IMG/VR virus record: IMGVR_UViG_3300025646_000361
Location: 1-24,117 of that record
DNA from: a virus
Reading direction: 5' to 3' (one strand)
DNA length: 24,117 bases
Position numbers and translations under genes: made by a program. A model generated the notes under the pieces. It worked only from the letters and a program-made list of their open reading frames with translations. It was not told the origin of the DNA and did not search any database. Positions 2,242 through 21,622 of the stretch are shown piece by piece. Position 1 is the first letter of the stretch. Every line of letters starts with the position of its first letter.

Positions 2242-3195
2242 TTAGTTTCTTAGCATTTGGATATCAAGGTCATTTATTGATACGGTCGTTGATTCACCAT
2301 TGGTGACATAAGCCTGTATCTGAACCACTACCTTTCCAGTAGTACCGCCTCCAACCACATCAGTTATAACAGGCGCATCAATAAAGACGTCATGAGTTCC
2401 AGCCGTGACAAATTGCTGGGATTTGAGCTGGACGTATTGTACCGTCAGAGGGTTATTAACCGTGGTGTATGGCGTGTACTTAGCTATAAAAACAATGTTT
2501 GTATCATCCAGAGTTGTTGTAGCAGAAAAAGCCGCTGTAGTTGTACTTGAACTAGCAAACCTAAGTTTTCTGTTTGGGAACGCGCTAAACCAATTATCCG
2601 ACGTAGTGCCGTTACTTGAGTTTTGAAAAGTGATAGTTTCAGCAGCCCCGTCAACCTCGCCAGCGACATTAACCGAACTTATCGTGGCGTCAGCTGTGGA
2701 AAACGGAATCGTAGCTGCTGTTTGGTGGGATGCCGTAGAGTCTGAAAGCGACGCGGTGCCAGTTGTTGTTAGGTTGACCTTACTGTCAAACGCGGTCCCG
2801 CTCATCCCAAACTCCGACAAGAAGGCGAGCAAGTCAACCGTGCTAACAGCACCATCGTCATCTAAGTCTCCCGCGAGGCCCGACGTCGTACCAGTAAAAT
2901 AAGCTTGCGTTCCAGCGTCTGCAGAAAGGACAAGACTCGCACCAATGGCGCCCATGAGGTCATCAAGGGCTAGCTTCTTGTGGGCGTTCTGGTCTACCTC
3001 ATCGACAACAAACAGATAGTTCTCTTGGTTGTTTGCTATGGTTGCAGCTACGTCAGAGTCAGGGTCTGGGCTTATAGGGTCTAAGTCATCTATCCTTACA
3101 ACCTCAACACTCTCATTAGCGTTTATTGTTACAAACGAATTTTCTGCCGAAGATGATTCTGAATCTACGGATACTATTTTTTTCCAAGTTGCCAT
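2242..3195 (-). CDS. Virion-associated protein with a single dockerin/EF-hand-like loop (317 aa)
   Basis: It starts MATWKKIVSVDS, sharing MATWKK with the protein at 3586-4626, so the two probably share an N-terminal anchoring segment. The N-terminal third is acidic. Residues 109-130 contain GDLDDDGAVSTVDLLAFL, which matches the calcium-binding loop of a dockerin type I repeat (D-x-D-x-D-G-x5-D-L). Only one copy is present, whereas true dockerins have two. The C-terminal half (about 150-317) is Thr/Ser-rich and beta-strand-like, with alternating hydrophobic residues, as in a receptor or fibre head domain. It sits between small genes and the large fibre gene in the leftward structural operon. 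A virion adhesin or fibre is the likely role; calcium binding is inference. Confidence 0.65.
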   Translation of the reverse strand: MATWKKIVSVDSESSSAENSFVTINANESVEVVRIDDLDPISPDPDSDVAATIANNQENYLFVVDEVDQNAHKKLALDDLMGAIGASLVLSADAGTQAYFTGTTSGLAGDLDDDGAVSTVDLLAFLSEFGMSGTAFDSKVNLTTTGTASLSDSTASHQTAATIPFSTADATISSVNVAGEVDGAAETITFQNSSNGTTSDNWFSAFPNRKLRFASSSTTTAAFSATTTLDDTNIVFIAKYTPYTTVNNPLTVQYVQLKSQQFVTAGTHDVFIDAPVITDVVGGGTTGKVVVQIQAYVTNGESTTVSINDLDIQMLRN

Positions 3196-3225
3196 GTGGT
3201 GCTAATTTACGAAGCAACCACTACA

Positions 3226-3390
3226 TCATTCTTGGGGTGTGGCCTTCTTTTCTTCGATGGACTGGAGTCTCTCAAGTTCCTTATCTAGCTTGTCCATAAG
3301 CGAAACAAGAGCCCTTGCGTCGTGAGCCTTTACATTTACTGATTCTACGGCAGCCTTGCAAAACGCAACCTCTGAAATATCAAGCTTCAT
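3226..3390 (-). CDS. Small helical protein, unknown (54 aa)
   Basis: A complete short gene begins MKLDISEVAFCKAAVES and ends EEKKATPQE before TGA at 3228-3226. It is predicted to be almost wholly helical and charged at the C terminus (DKLDKELERLQSIEEKK), compatible with a short coiled coil. It fills the space between two virion genes with only 15 bases to its upstream neighbour and 30 to its downstream neighbour, so it fits the operon. It resembles the adjacent 57-aa gene in size and in its LMDKLDKELERLQ versus ADVVEKLQNQL pattern, suggesting a related pair. Function unknown. Confidence 0.65.
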   Translation of the reverse strand: MKLDISEVAFCKAAVESVNVKAHDARALVSLMDKLDKELERLQSIEEKKATPQE

Positions 3391-11858: not shown

Positions 11859-12148
11859 TTGCTAAATCGTTCTGCAAATCCGCTAGAGTAGTCTCTATCG
11901 GCCTCTATCTCTCCGTTCTGCTTAAGGTCCTTAACCATCTGCTCTAGCCTTTGCCGTTCTACAATAAGCTCCTTGCAGTCTATAGCGGTCTGCTTGATTG
12001 ATTGAAGCTCTGCTTTACGTGCGCTACCGCTAACCTCTGGGTCTACTGGCTTCTTTATCTCCTCAATCATATTATTGATTGCGATAGCCATAGAGTCCAT
12101 CAGTCGTGATGACGCCTCTATCGTGGTGAACTTACTGCTCTTCGACAT
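11855..12148 (-). CDS. Small helical protein, candidate small terminase subunit (97 aa)
   Basis: It lies directly before TerL with a 4-base ATGA overlap, the classic small-terminase position. The chain starts MSKSSKFTTIEASSRLMDSM and is nearly all helical, with a long charged coiled coil (KELIVERQRLEQMVKDLKQN) near residues 58-78. TerS proteins have an N-terminal helix-turn-helix and a central coiled coil for oligomerisation; the coiled coil is seen but no clear DNA-binding motif is, and the protein is short for the family. The terminase role is therefore inference from position. It overlaps the GroES-like gene by 17 bases. Confidence 0.6.
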   Translation of the reverse strand: MSKSSKFTTIEASSRLMDSMAIAINNMIEEIKKPVDPEVSGSARKAELQSIKQTAIDCKELIVERQRLEQMVKDLKQNGEIEADRDYSSGFAERFSK

Positions 12149-12725
12149 AGCTAAGGTCGTCAGCCCTCATCCTATAAGCAATAGTGCCGTCGTCTAATTT
12201 AATCTTATAATCCGAGTTCTTATCAAAACCCACAATATCACCAGGCTTCACGCCCATCCACTCGATATCTTTGTTTGTAACCATAACCCTAGCAACATTG
12301 GCACGAACCTTTTCTTTAGACACCTCAACTATAATTCCAGAATCTGTTTTTACATCGCCACCATCACCAAATACTGGCTCCACAAACACCCAGTCGTTAA
12401 GCATTTTCAACTTCTTGGATTCTTTGGAACGATACGCTATAGCGTGGTCTGGTGTGTGCGGATTCTTTTCATCGTACTCACAGATATACATGCCGTTTCC
12501 TATAGACAGCGGGGCAGCCATGATTACGTGATGATGAAAAAACAGTGTGTCACCAATCTTAGCCCCAGTGTCAAAATTTAGCGGGGGGCTTACTATCTCA
12601 CCGTATGCTATACGGTGCTCAAATTCATTAAACTTCGGGTCTAGATAAAACTCTTTATCGCCAATATTTATAGTGTCGTTAAAGCGCTTCTCGACCTTCA
12701 CGATGAAGTGCCTGAGAGATTTCAT
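12132..12725 (-). CDS. GroES-like co-chaperonin with two Cpn10 folds in tandem (197 aa)
   Basis: The C-terminal half (about 107-197) reads like a GroES chain: LNDWVFVEPV, a mobile-loop region ending SGIIVEV, then NVARVMV...GVKPGDIVGFDKNSDYKIKLDDG and a final RADDLSYV strand, matching the order in Cpn10 (first strand, GGI loop, VKVGD, D-D-I-L-A-V end). The N-terminal half repeats it: RHFIVKVEKRF, IAYGEIVSPP, KIGDTLFFHHHV. GroES caps GroEL; phage versions such as T4 gp31 replace host GroES so that capsid protein folds. Its place next to the terminase and virion genes fits that role. Host GroEL as partner is inferred. A canonical co-chaperonin has about 95 residues, so this looks like a duplication. 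Confidence 0.7.
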   Translation of the reverse strand: MKSLRHFIVKVEKRFNDTINIGDKEFYLDPKFNEFEHRIAYGEIVSPPLNFDTGAKIGDTLFFHHHVIMAAPLSIGNGMYICEYDEKNPHTPDHAIAYRSKESKKLKMLNDWVFVEPVFGDGGDVKTDSGIIVEVSKEKVRANVARVMVTNKDIEWMGVKPGDIVGFDKNSDYKIKLDDGTIAYRMRADDLSYVEEQ

Positions 12726-16111: not shown

Positions 16112-17305
16112 TCACTGCCCAGCCCTCATAGCCGCAGCCTTACGAGCATTCTCCTCTCTTCTGGCCTTAGCTTGTTGTTCCCTACTCTGCATGTTCTGCT
16201 CGTAGTTTGAAACGCCAGCCTGGAGATACTGATAGTTGTCCTTACCCGTTCCAACTCCCGTGGTCCAGTCCGAGGAACCCTTTTGAGAAATGAAGGATTG
16301 GAATGCTTTTCTAGCCTCTGGAGTGTCTTGAGACACATCGACACCCATGTCTTTAGCGTACATCTGGAAGGCCATAACATCGCCCTCGTCTAGGCTCTCA
16401 CCCCCAACAGAGCGAAGAACCCTTGGGATGTTTTCCCCTCCTCTAAGTCCACCCTGAGCAATCGGACGGTTGGGGTCGTAGAAGCTCGTCATGGGCATAA
16501 TCTTTTCACCAAACTTGATAGCTCCGTGGAAGTCCCCAATCTTCTTATCTGTCATGTACCTGCGAGCCATTGCGAGCTTCTCCGCGTCGCTCTTGCCCTC
16601 AAGGACCTTGAAGTTTTCATTGCCAGACTCAATCATCTTGTTGATGGCTGTGAGTGTCTCGCCTGGGTTCTCGTCAATGAACGAATTCACCTTGTTTACC
16701 CAGCCCTGATACTGCTGGTCTAGCGAGCCCTCCCCAGACAGATACTCCTTTCCGAAATCCGTTCCACGGAGTCTGGCCTTCATCTCGTCATCCATGTCGT
16801 CGAGATTTCCAGACTCTGGGAGTGAGAAGTTGTATGCGTCAATCTTTCCCTGACTGGTAGCCTGCATCATACCCTCGTTGTTTCTGTATGAACCCTCCGC
16901 AGTTGGTACGGTGGTATACGGGTCTCTAACCACAGATGTGCTGGCCTTCTTTGGGTCGCCCTCAATATCCATCTTCCCACCATTTACGAAATACATCTTA
17001 CCCCCCATTTCGAAGGAGGCTTTAGTATCTGCGGCGCCGAGCATACGCGCCAGCCTGCTCATCTGCTTCACTCTTGCGTATTCATCACCGCTGTCGTCCT
17101 TAAGGACTTGCTTCTCTCCAAACAACAGGCCAGGTCTTTCTTCAGTAGAGACGTTGAGCTCCGTTGGACTCGTGTCCTCCCCCTCGATTTCACCACCGTT
17201 GAAGTAGTACATTCTCCCGCCTCTCGCCATAGAGCGAGACTTGAGTCTGTTAATCAACCATTGTGGCATCTTGCCACCAGCGCCGTAGTTGTTTCTGTAG
17301 TCCAT
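16112..17305 (-). CDS. Unknown structural-region protein with GGxMY repeats (397 aa)
   Basis: No family is recognised. The N-terminal part contains a repeated motif: GGRMYYFNGGEIEGE at residues 29-43 and GGKMYFVNGGKMDIEG at 101-116, with a weaker GAGGKMPQ at 9-16. Such Gly/aromatic motifs occur in large phage virion-associated or internal proteins. The middle is mixed helical (VNKVNSFIDENPGETLTAIN) and the C terminus is a charged helix rich in Glu, Arg and Gln. There is no signal peptide or membrane segment. Its position upstream of the transglycosylase suggests an internal virion or ejection protein; this is inference. The ATG is 5 bases from a TATATTTG box, so its mRNA may start at the start codon. 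Confidence 0.6.
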   Translation of the reverse strand: MDYRNNYGAGGKMPQWLINRLKSRSMARGGRMYYFNGGEIEGEDTSPTELNVSTEERPGLLFGEKQVLKDDSGDEYARVKQMSRLARMLGAADTKASFEMGGKMYFVNGGKMDIEGDPKKASTSVVRDPYTTVPTAEGSYRNNEGMMQATSQGKIDAYNFSLPESGNLDDMDDEMKARLRGTDFGKEYLSGEGSLDQQYQGWVNKVNSFIDENPGETLTAINKMIESGNENFKVLEGKSDAEKLAMARRYMTDKKIGDFHGAIKFGEKIMPMTSFYDPNRPIAQGGLRGGENIPRVLRSVGGESLDEGDVMAFQMYAKDMGVDVSQDTPEARKAFQSFISQKGSSDWTTGVGTGKDNYQYLQAGVSNYEQNMQSREQQAKARREENARKAAAMRAGQ

Positions 17306-19156: not shown

Positions 19157-19239
19157 CATTTAGCTGTGCAATATCGCAGACCTTGGTGCGTATAGGTATC
19201 AAAGGGGAGACAAACCCACCCCGACAAACACCACACACA

Positions 19240-19404
19240 ATGGACAAGTTCAAGGAAGTAGAAGGCATCATTGACTCAGTCATCGGGTCAGGCTTCATGA
19301 CAAGTGTAGATGTGTACAGAGTTCTTGGCCATGACCCAGACGCAAAGAGTTACATTCTGAAGCACCACCTAGACGAGGAGTTGGAAGCCTACTTGGGCAT
19401 GTGA
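19240..19404 (+). CDS. Small acidic protein, first gene of the rightward block (54 aa)
   Basis: The product starts MDKFKEVEGIIDSVIGSGFM and continues TSVDVYRVLGHDPDAKSYIL to YLGM. It is helical and acidic, with an SGFMTSVDVYRVLGHDP segment that could be a short helix-turn-helix. ATG at 19240 is chosen, with the CACACACAATG leader shared by other rightward genes; a TTG at 19183 is unlikely. The stop lies 7 bases before the hammerhead ribozyme, so the mRNA of this gene would end in the 5' cleavage product. Function unknown. Confidence 0.6.
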   Translation: MDKFKEVEGIIDSVIGSGFMTSVDVYRVLGHDPDAKSYILKHHLDEELEAYLGM

Positions 19405-19411
19405 CTCCACA

Positions 19412-19465
19412 GGTACACTGACGAGCCTTGAATAGGCGAAACACCACCTTAGTGGTGTCTGTATC
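19412..19465 (+). ncRNA. Type I hammerhead ribozyme
   Basis: A complete self-cleaving motif is present. Stem I GGTACA (19412-19417) pairs with TGTATC (19460-19465), with one G-U. The core CTGACGA (19418-19424) matches CUGANGA. Stem II is GCCT/AGGC (19425-19428 and 19434-19437) around TGAAT, starting with the standard G10.1-C11.1 pair. GAA (19438-19440) follows. Stem III ACACCAC/GTGGTGT (19441-19447 and 19452-19458) is seven perfect pairs closed by CTTA, with the required A15.1-U16.1. Position 17 is C19459, giving a GTC cleavage site between 19459 and 19460. The open helix is stem I, hence type I. Cleavage would separate the first and second rightward genes in the mRNA and leave a 26-base leader on the second. 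Activity is inferred. Confidence 0.9.
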
Positions 19466-19485
19466 AAACCTTCAATTCATCCACA

Positions 19486-19875
19486 ATGAACTTTCAAAAC
19501 CTCATGATTCTGCGTTACATGAATGTGCAGAGCGGCAACGGATTCTCTGTTGACAAGAGCCTTGACGGATACAACCCCACACGCGAAGCCTATGCAGTAG
19601 GCGGAGCCTGTGACTCCGTTGAGACTGAGTACAATGACGACCTGTCCTTCAACAAGTTCCGTGGAATTATGGAGCTCAAGATTGAGTTCATGAATGGTCA
19701 GCCTGACACCACAACGCAAGTAATTGGTGCATGGGTGAATGATGAAGGTTTGGTCTTCATTGAAGTGTCCGACATCGTCTTCGACCGAGAGGAAGCCATC
19801 GCGTTGGGCAAGGAGCGAGGAGAGGAAGCCATCTGGGATTTCAAGAACAACTGCGACATCAAACTGACCTTCTGA
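19486..19875 (+). CDS. Unknown protein directly downstream of the hammerhead (129 aa)
   Basis: The product begins MNFQNLMILRYMNVQSGNGF and includes NPTREAYAVGGACDSVETEY, a beta-rich VIGAWVNDEGLVFIEVSDIV and a helix ALGKERGEEAIWDF. No family is recognised. A cytosolic phage protein is likely since no signal peptide or membrane segment is seen. The start follows CATCCACAATG, with no Shine-Dalgarno. Its transcript would begin with a 5'-hydroxyl 26 bases upstream after ribozyme cleavage, so the level of this protein may depend on that cleavage. Confidence 0.65.
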   Translation: MNFQNLMILRYMNVQSGNGFSVDKSLDGYNPTREAYAVGGACDSVETEYNDDLSFNKFRGIMELKIEFMNGQPDTTTQVIGAWVNDEGLVFIEVSDIVFDREEAIALGKERGEEAIWDFKNNCDIKLTF

Positions 19876-19909
19876 CACAATAACCAGAGACCGACAACGT
19901 TGATAACAA

Positions 19910-19931
19910 GGGGAGACAACTCCGTCTCCCC
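19910..19931 (+). promoter_or_regulatory. Perfect 8-bp hairpin GGGGAGAC/GTCTCCCC
   Basis: GGGGAGAC (19910-19917) and GTCTCCCC (19924-19931) pair perfectly around AACTCC. It lies 16 bases before the ATG at 19948. There is no T-run after it, so it is a poor terminator and better seen as a 5' leader hairpin or processing signal. A related GGGGAG/CTCCCC hairpin precedes the gene at 21332. Confidence 0.55.
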
Positions 19932-19947
19932 ACAAACCCCAAACACC

Positions 19948-20238
19948 ATGACCCAAGAGCAAGCAAACGTCCGCAACGAGCGAAATGCTCGCATCTCCAA
20001 CCAACCTATTGGCAGAGCAGTTCTTATCGTCAACTCCTACCTAGGCAACCCAAGCAAGTTCCTGCCCATGCTGAACTTCGTGGCGGGAGTTCGCCCAAGC
20101 GCTGTCAGGTCCATGGCTCGATTCATCTGCAATGTGCAGGACGGATTCGTGCCCAATCCGCAGGGAGGAGCGAAGGAGACATGCATCGACATGCTTACGG
20201 ACCTGTACAACGACCACATGGCAAGAATCGAAGGCTGA
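19948..20238 (+). CDS. Unknown protein (96 aa)
   Basis: Begins MTQEQANVRNERNARISNQP, then a LIVNSYLGNPSKFLPMLNFV helix-rich stretch and RSMARFICNVQDGFVPNPQG, ending NDHMARIEG. The start chosen is the ATG at 19948 after CAAACACC; upstream in-frame codons back to 19900 fall within the hairpin. Its TGA overlaps the next ATG as TGATG. No family is recognised, but it heads a coupled string that ends in the ArdC-like gene. Confidence 0.6.
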   Translation: MTQEQANVRNERNARISNQPIGRAVLIVNSYLGNPSKFLPMLNFVAGVRPSAVRSMARFICNVQDGFVPNPQGGAKETCIDMLTDLYNDHMARIEG

Positions 20239-20366
20239 TGACTCGCATGGATATCTTCGCCCACCTGTTGGGCGTATGGGCAGGAGGAAGTTTTCTGCTG
20301 TCCTGCATACGATTGGGGCTCAATATGACGTTAGACTACTTAGAAACTAAATTCAATACACAATGA
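20238..20366 (+). CDS. Small membrane-like protein between two coupled genes (42 aa)
   Basis: The frame starts at ATG 20238, overlapping the previous stop, and ends in TGA at 20364-20366, overlapping the ArdC start as ATGA. The product MTRMDIFAHLLGVWAGGSFL then LSCIRLGLNM has one probable membrane helix, then TLDYLETKFNTQ. Its last codons AAT ACA CAA are also the leader AATACACAATG of the next gene, so the frame may be partly shaped by that leader. Real translation is supported by coupling on both sides. Confidence 0.5.
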   Translation: MTRMDIFAHLLGVWAGGSFLLSCIRLGLNMTLDYLETKFNTQ

Positions 20367-21253
20367 AACAGGACGTATATGACAAGGTCACAGAGAAGGT
20401 TCTCGAGGGCCTGAAGCAAAAAGGCATGGCATGGTTCCGCCCATGGGAAGGTAGTGGTGGGCTGTCGCCTATCAACCGAGTGACGGGCCGTCCGTACAAA
20501 GGTATGAACGTATTCTTCCTCTTCGCGGAGATGGAGGACAAGAAGTACGCCCACAATGAATGGTTGACCTTCAAGCAGGCAGAGCAGTTGGGCGGCAGTG
20601 TCAACAAGGGAGAGAAGTCTACCTTGGTTATCTTTTGGAACATCTTCTTCAAGGGAGAGGACGGGAAGTTGTACAAGAAGGAGTCAGACATCCCTGTGGG
20701 CATGCCCTACGAGAAGTTGTTCTCCCTTCGCTCCTACAACGTCTTCAATATCGCGCAATGTGAAGGCATCGAGCCCAAGCGGAAGTCTGTAGAAGCAGGC
20801 AACGATGGAACGCCAATTGAGCGAGCGGAAGCTATCTACGAGAACTTCAAGGGACGTCCAACCCTGAAGCAAGGTGGCGACAGGGCCTACTACAAGCCTT
20901 CGACACACCATGTGCAAATGCCGAAGATGGAGACCTTCGTGTCGGTTGACGACTACTACAAGGTGCTCTTCCACGAGTTGACGCACAGCACAGGTCACGA
21001 GACGCTGTTGAACCGAGCCACCTTGGTTGACATGAACTCGTTTGGCGATGCCAACTACAGCAAGGAGGAGTTGGTTGCGGAAGTTGGTGCGCAGTTCCTG
21101 ACAGGCATCGTTGGCATCCAACCCAAGTCTGACCACACAAACTCACAGGCCTATATTAATGGGTGGATTTCGAAGATTGGCAACGACAAGAAGTTCCTTG
21201 TCAGTGCCTGCACCCAAGCGATGAAGGCAGTTGACTGCATCCTCGGAGATTAA
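20363..21253 (+). CDS. ardC: ArdC-like antirestriction protein (296 aa)
   Basis: ArdC-type proteins bind single-stranded DNA and carry a zinc metalloprotease domain; they protect incoming DNA from restriction. The N-terminal domain (about 1-130) begins KQDVYDKVTEKVLEGLKQKG and has MAWFRPW, GGLSPINRVTGRPYKGMN and VIFWNIFF, the usual ArdC ssDNA-binding set. The C-terminal domain has FHELTHSTGHE at 203-213 with the HExxH motif (H204, E205, H208) and a later E237 or E240 in KEELVAEVGA as likely third ligand. Length is close to the family norm. It is coupled to the upstream 42-aa gene and followed by the repeat TTAACATCCGTTAA. Family assignment is firm; the target of the protease site is unknown. 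Confidence 0.88.
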   Translation: MKQDVYDKVTEKVLEGLKQKGMAWFRPWEGSGGLSPINRVTGRPYKGMNVFFLFAEMEDKKYAHNEWLTFKQAEQLGGSVNKGEKSTLVIFWNIFFKGEDGKLYKKESDIPVGMPYEKLFSLRSYNVFNIAQCEGIEPKRKSVEAGNDGTPIERAEAIYENFKGRPTLKQGGDRAYYKPSTHHVQMPKMETFVSVDDYYKVLFHELTHSTGHETLLNRATLVDMNSFGDANYSKEELVAEVGAQFLTGIVGIQPKSDHTNSQAYINGWISKIGNDKKFLVSACTQAMKAVDCILGD

Positions 21254-21267: not shown

Positions 21268-21291
21268 GGGGAGGGCAATATGGCTCTCCCC
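21268..21291 (+). promoter_or_regulatory. GGGGAG/CTCCCC hairpin
   Basis: GGGGAG (21268-21273) and CTCCCC (21286-21291) pair around a 12-base loop. It lies just before the GTTCTAACACTAGAAAC box in the leader of the gene at 21332. No T-run follows. Confidence 0.4.
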
Positions 21292-21296
21292 ACCAC

Positions 21297-21313
21297 GTTC
21301 TAACACTAGAAAC
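21297..21313 (+). promoter_or_regulatory. GTTCTAACACTAGAAAC box (copy 1)
   Basis: One of five near-identical 17-base boxes in gaps before rightward genes. It contains the inverted repeat TTCTA-N4-TAGAA and is followed by a C/A-rich leader to the ATG at 21332. Candidate phage promoter, operator or translation leader. Confidence 0.55.
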
Positions 21314-21331: not shown

Positions 21332-21622
21332 ATGAGCATGCTCCCAAAAATTAGCAAGACCATCACCACGAGCGATGGCTACACCAAGCACATCAGCACG
21401 ATGGGCGACACGACACATGTCATGGTCAACGATTTCTGCTACCACATCCGCCAAATGGCCGACAGCGAACTCCGCGATGCCTGTGTACAACTCATCATGG
21501 AAGCCAAGAAGATGGCGCAGGAGGACACGCAGTTCGGAATCGCTGTAGACCCCGATGACGAGCCGCGCAGAGGCTTGGTCAACATGGACGGGACCATCGA
21601 ATACTTTGACGGAGAGTACTAA
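21332..21622 (+). CDS. Small acidic protein, unknown (96 aa)
   Basis: The product starts MSMLPKISKTITTSDGYTKH and contains FCYHIRQMADSELRDACVQL and IMEAKKMAQEDTQFG, then an acidic end (DPDDEPRRGLVNMDGTIEYF). It is probably helical in the middle with beta ends. No family is recognised. It is the first gene after a full leader (operator repeat, hairpin, 17-base box), so it may head its own transcript. Confidence 0.65.
   Translation: MSMLPKISKTITTSDGYTKHISTMGDTTHVMVNDFCYHIRQMADSELRDACVQLIMEAKKMAQEDTQFGIAVDPDDEPRRGLVNMDGTIEYFDGEY

Follow-up and report, generated by a model that had tools for sequence, protein, structure and literature searches.

A type I hammerhead ribozyme between two phage genes belongs to a large, phage-enriched family predicted to cut messages between cistrons

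What does a self-cleaving RNA do between two genes of a phage? The question is raised by a viral DNA stretch of 24,117 nucleotides (nt) (IMG/VR record IMGVR_UViG_3300025646_000361, positions 1 to 24,117; here, the window), in which a sequence-only reading had picked out a hammerhead ribozyme and described it as an intercistronic processing element at the head of a gene block. Hammerheads that flank prophage genes were reported in 2011 by Perreault et al., who proposed that they process long phage transcripts and recorded cleavage in vitro for three prophage arrays, of types I, II, and III, and cleavage in E. coli for one (PMC3088659); the novelty claimed in the sequence-only reading was, to that extent, overstated. 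A 2017 review regarded the function of hammerheads in prokaryotes as unsettled and remarked on their persistent link to phages (PMC6155905).

A hammerhead between the first two genes of the rightward block

The phage origin of the window is evident from its terminase and portal, which match phage families; the terminase is related to those of Flavobacterium, Cellulophaga, and Maribacter phages and, distantly, to those of crAss-like phages. When the window region was compared at the DNA level with the collection of named phages, no match was returned. Structural genes are read leftward, and a block of small genes is read rightward. This block begins with a 54-amino-acid (aa) gene without a known family (19240 to 19404, plus strand; stop codon TGA at 19402 to 19404), which is followed by a 129-aa gene (19486 to 19875, plus strand) with a weak match to phrog_17808, of unknown function. 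The ribozyme, the only copy in the window, lies between these two genes and on their coding strand, making its earlier placement at the head of the block a fair description. DNA homologues of the 54-aa gene also precede hammerheads in four other loci (L003, L021, L058, and L071). Elsewhere in the window, the rightward block that holds the ribozyme includes an ArdC-type anti-restriction gene (20363 to 21253; ArdcN plus a zincin-like peptidase), and a Chaperonin 10 domain occurs in a leftward 197-aa gene (12132 to 12725) near the terminase and portal.

The element spans 54 bases (19412 to 19465, plus strand) and comprises a 6-bp stem I, a 4-bp stem II, and a 7-bp stem III. The 5' strand of stem I (GGUACA, 19412 to 19417), whose pairing with the 3' strand (UGUAUC, 19460 to 19465) includes one G-U, is preceded by an A at 19411 and followed by the catalytic core segment CUGACGA (C3 to A9, 19418 to 19424). 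Stem II (19425 to 19437) pairs GCCU (19425 to 19428) with AGGC (19434 to 19437) around the loop UGAAU, which is of the UNANU class, and leads into the core bases GAA (G12, A13, and A14; 19438 to 19440). Stem III (19441 to 19458) pairs ACACCAC (19441 to 19447) with GUGGUGU (19452 to 19458) around the loop CUUA. All sequence features that define the class are present, namely, the CUGANGA and GAA core, G10.1-C11.1, A15.1-U16.1, and an H at position 17, and the permutation is that of type I, with stem I open and loops closing stems II and III.

Hammerheads are cut after position 17, leaving a 2',3'-cyclic phosphate and a 5'-hydroxyl. The hammerhead fold equates C17 with 19459, such that the predicted cut falls between C19459 and U19460, as had been proposed. 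The claims of a complete type I hammerhead with every conserved position and of its spacing to both neighboring genes held equally well: each part lies where it had been placed, 7 bases intervene between the TGA and stem I, and 26 between the cut and the ATG at 19486. The 3' strand of stem I would form the 5' end of the downstream mRNA and is followed by the remainder of the leader, AAACCTTCAATTCATCCACA (19466 to 19485, plus strand; supported by alignment A5 and leader statistics), the first base of which is the A that brackets stem I on its 3' side.

Folding and covariance searches

In isolation, the 54-base stretch adopts the exact hammerhead in both its minimum-energy and its centroid folds (-18.7 kcal/mol), and 4 of 200 shuffles of this stretch fold equally well. 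Within a 281-nt context, stems II and III persist, and stem I is absent from the minimum-energy fold. The 17 paired bases of the real site, arranged around an intact core, were never reached by any hammerhead-like site in 1500 dinucleotide shuffles of the window, among which the best value was 16, obtained twice.

A whole-window Rfam scan (E ≤ 1) gave no match. In a local scan, the element fell below the gathering cutoffs of both RF03152 (RAGATH-1-hammerhead; 24.3 bits against 56.3) and RF00163 (Hammerhead_1; 15.5 bits against 34), so the type I covariance search suggested in the sequence-only reading did not recover it. The permutation, with stem I open, and the core are shared with RF00163 despite the low score. 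RF03152, the best Rfam match, aligns over the core and stems, but its first 21 model positions are unmatched, stem II is longer in the window, and the score is far under the cutoff. This failure is a property of the Rfam models, because they call one hammerhead in total across 13 array loci in which scanning detects dozens, and an Rfam scan of eight loci from the window's own clade reported no hammerhead. The models miss nearly all members of the family described below, indicating that annotated phage genomes under-report hammerheads. By comparison, a covariance model trained on 55 sequences, with the window and its clade excluded (R2), scored the element at 61.5 bits (E = 1.6e-13), and this was its sole match within the window.

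Conservation and covariation among relatives

Six public contigs were selected solely by a relative of the downstream 129-aa protein, and a complete hammerhead lies upstream in all six, in one case (L006) with an additional small gene separating the ribozyme from the 129-aa homologue. The stems differ among these relatives: stem I occurs as GGTACA/TGTATC, GGCATA/TATGTC, GGCACA/TGTGTC, and GGTACT/AGTATC, including double changes, and stem II occurs as GCCT/AGGC, GCGC/GCGC, and GTCC/GGAC. In the clade alignment (A2), every paired cell holds a standard pair, with 38 double changes, and none of the slid or shuffled controls matches this. Compensatory change was found in all three helices (alignment A2, leave-clade-out model), and the expectation that related phages would carry the element with compensated stems was thereby borne out. 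The catalytic core is retained in 20 of 20 clade members while the stems vary, and the CUGACGA segment is invariant in the clade except at position 7. Similarity extends to the 20 bases 3' of the ribozyme, even in L006 and L238, in which the next gene is a different one. Contigs of this clade carry one or two ribozymes each. The intact core, the leave-clade-out covariance score, and the compensatory changes in protein-selected relatives strongly support the assignment of the window element, on sequence grounds, to the type I hammerheads.

A fold this stable might also serve the cell as a hairpin that is never cut, acting, for example, to terminate transcription, to form a 3' barrier, or to slow translation. 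The clade, however, keeps its unpaired catalytic bases while the stem bases vary freely, which is not required of a hairpin, and we regard such a role as very improbable. The terminator version was rejected: there is no U-run 3' of the stems, and a terminator scan lists none at the site.

A large, phage-enriched family

A search pattern in which only the core, some of loop II, and a small number of stem bases are fixed matched at least 120 stretches in viral contigs, as opposed to 8 in 84,980 prokaryote genomes, and four of those 8 contain a full hammerhead. The full three-stem fold is present in 169 of 178 pattern matches. Scanning of the fetched loci yielded 245 non-redundant ribozymes in 129 loci, which, judged from their sequences, form a large phage-enriched family with the window element as a member. 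Because the scanner demands pairing, the percentage of paired positions is inflated in the large covariation sets that come from it (A1 and A6). The fair basis for covariation consists of the protein-selected set, the pattern-selected set, and the leave-clade-out model, and A1 and A6 alone were not taken as proof.

The anatomy of the family is uniform around stem I, which is exactly 6 bp long in 235 of the 245 copies, and loop II is usually UNANU. An A stands immediately 5' of stem I in 171 of 172 pattern matches (background, 32%) and immediately 3' of it in about 96% of the copies with a 6-bp stem I. Among copies outside the fetch patterns, the bracketing A persists in 77 of 84 cases before stem I and in about 74 of 84 after it, indicating that the rule is not a search artifact. 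All 199 UNANU members have the A-A bracket, and all five GUAA-loop members, which are related to one another, have C/T and T at these positions; this correlation hints at a contact between stem I and loop II.

Three further loci were noted during these searches. At position 4272 of L058, 8 nt past an intact hammerhead, another one is represented by its core and stem II, with the 3' half missing, and is probably a decaying duplicate. A full hammerhead is present on a 1.39-Mb Flavobacteriales chromosome contig (L142, 5188 to 5243). The blastn matches in L153 and L154, which contain hammerhead-like halves, are not hammerheads.

Placement relative to genes and arrays

In the 245-copy family, the cut precedes the next reading-frame ATG by a median of 25 nt (quartiles, 22 to 28), and the distance is 20 to 30 nt in 69% of copies, compared with 7% of random positions. 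The upstream stop codon lies a median of 0 nt from stem I. It falls within -12 to +15 nt of the stem I start in 71% of copies, inside the ribozyme in 48%, and past the core in about 10%. On each of the 60 contigs that carry more than one copy, the copies form arrays on a single strand, with a median spacing of 611 nt, and the segments between ribozymes mostly hold one to three genes; the largest arrays contain 15 copies on a 22.5-kb contig and 14 on a 39.8-kb contig.

The 229 downstream proteins fall into 173 clusters and are mostly small and of unknown function, with a few DNA methyltransferases and ArdC proteins among them. Because these proteins are mostly unrelated, the element is not tied to one gene, and regulation specific to a particular gene was rejected. 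The placement rule, with the stop at the ribozyme, the cut some 25 nt ahead of the following start codon, all copies on one strand, and unrelated genes downstream, points to the formation of mRNA ends. The use of these elements in intercistronic processing is well supported by their position across the 245 copies, and the best reading of the family is that of a portable cutter of intercistronic mRNA, with cutting itself predicted.

Proposed processing of the first rightward message

For the window, it is probable that the type I hammerhead acts in cis on the first message of the rightward early block, which spans two genes, and cuts it between C19459 and U19460 to give two separately stable messages. 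The ribozyme would be transcribed within this message, which the cut would split in two. At its 3' end, the upstream product would carry the hairpins of stems II and III and a 2',3'-cyclic phosphate, which should protect it from 3' exonucleases. Its downstream partner would begin with a 5'-hydroxyl and a 26-nt leader and should escape decay that depends on a 5' phosphate. One promoter would then supply two messages, whose stability and translation could be set apart. More tentatively, and with considerable doubt on our part, the standardized subfamily (6-bp stem I, A-A bracket, and UNANU loop) may be a portable module of ribozyme and leader that sets the ends of mRNAs between the cistrons of unrelated phages, offering an alternative to a separate promoter for each gene, with the cut tuned by the ribosome that terminates there.

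The spacing of stop codons allows a different view of what the cut does. A ribosome ending the upstream gene could cover stem I or the core and block folding, such that cutting would be gated by, and would report, upstream translation. The stops found around the stem I start and inside the ribozyme suit this idea, as does the window, where the 7 nt between stop and stem I would let a terminating ribosome, given the size of its footprint, reach that stem. Translation gating is a live rival because stops adjoin or overlap the ribozyme, but we consider it unlikely: tight packing of phage genes would by itself place stops near the element, and in the roughly 10% of copies noted above, the stop lies beyond the core.

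The arrays, with up to 15 copies per contig, raise the further prospect of circular or religated RNA, since the segments between ribozymes would carry the matching 5'-hydroxyl and 2',3'-cyclic phosphate ends that are substrates of RtcB-type ligases. We give this very little credence. The window has a single copy, its clade has one or two per contig, and no circular or spliced products came to light when Perreault et al. looked for them in their own systems (PMC3088659).

Gain, loss, and neighboring motifs

The ribozyme is present in 4 of 16 long contigs that were selected only by their terminase. No hammerhead occurs in MW202828, the named phage closest to the window by terminase, and NC_055853 has one that the scanner overlooked and that scores 45.8 bits with model R1. 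The terminase of L237 (the same phage as L161) is 84% identical to that of the window. In L237, the gene homologous to that at 21332 in the window carries a hammerhead immediately 5' of a leader that the two phages share, and both the leader and the start are conserved; in the window, a repeated motif occupies the place of the L237 hammerhead. This swap suggests that a gene can owe its 5' end to a promoter of its own or, alternatively, to cleavage by a ribozyme.

The repeated intergenic motif, TTAACATCCGTTAACA ... ACGTTCTAAYACTAGAAAC, occurs in the window at 21297, 21925, 22774, 23515, and 23752, about 27 to 36 nt upstream of five start codons of the rightward block, and a degenerate copy is present at 19875 to 19917. 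That it is a phage promoter is a guess. Strong hairpins with GGGGAG/CTCCCC arms (19910 to 19931 and 21268 to 21288) stand before the starts at 19948 and 21332, and the motif AAGGGGAGACAA is also found at 19202, upstream of the first rightward gene.

In L003, a unit of upstream gene plus hammerhead occurs twice (genes at 1855 to 1986 and 2970 to 3092; ribozymes at 2052 to 2105 and 3182 to 3231), suggesting duplication of the unit. Such duplicates, the patchy occurrence of the ribozyme among close phages, and the unrelated genes downstream could all be explained by a passenger element that moves from phage to phage along with early-gene cassettes and is of no benefit to the phages. Against this stand the core kept in all 20 clade members while the stems change, the strict spacing to stops and starts, and the single-strand arrays; moreover, no linked transposase or recombinase was seen. 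A passenger is quite improbable, and both it and circular RNA are less likely than the ribosome-gated rival.

Relation to known hammerheads and cultured carriers

The present family resembles the prophage hammerheads of 2011 in its core and three stems, its occurrence in phage genomes, and its multiple copies around single genes or short blocks, and the inconstant identity of the flanked genes reported there holds here as well (PMC3088659). It differs in being found in free marine phages, in forming one compact type I subfamily with a fixed 6-bp stem I, and in having a measured rule for the stop-to-ribozyme and cut-to-ATG distances. In a literature search pairing hammerheads with crAss-like or marine phages, the family did not appear, a weak negative in that subscription papers lay outside the search. 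What is added here is the placement rule, the anatomy of the subfamily, and its cultured carriers; the subfamily itself is possibly contained in the supplementary alignments of 2011.

Cultured carriers include Methylophilales phage MEP301 and the Pelagibacter phages Jormungand (EXVC012P), HTVC019P, and HTVC131P. Flavobacterium elemoviruses are carriers as well: 68 of 68 records match a 201-base query that contains the ribozyme, which is located at 17209 to 17274 on the minus strand of MT497068. These phages make the function of the family directly testable, permitting experiments on a role that the literature calls open (PMC6155905). The hammerheads of the three pelagiphages (L240, 708 to 768; L241, 737 to 799; L152, 1497 to 1557) share with the window element the length of stem I, the bracketing A, stem II, and the UNANU loop but differ in having an A at the cut site, a 10-bp stem III, and a position upstream of marR and integrase genes. 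A similar setting of ardA, marR, and integrase was described in Agrobacterium by Perreault et al. (PMC3088659). In MEP301 (L150, 702 to 753), the annotated stop codon of gp02 falls within loop II of the ribozyme.
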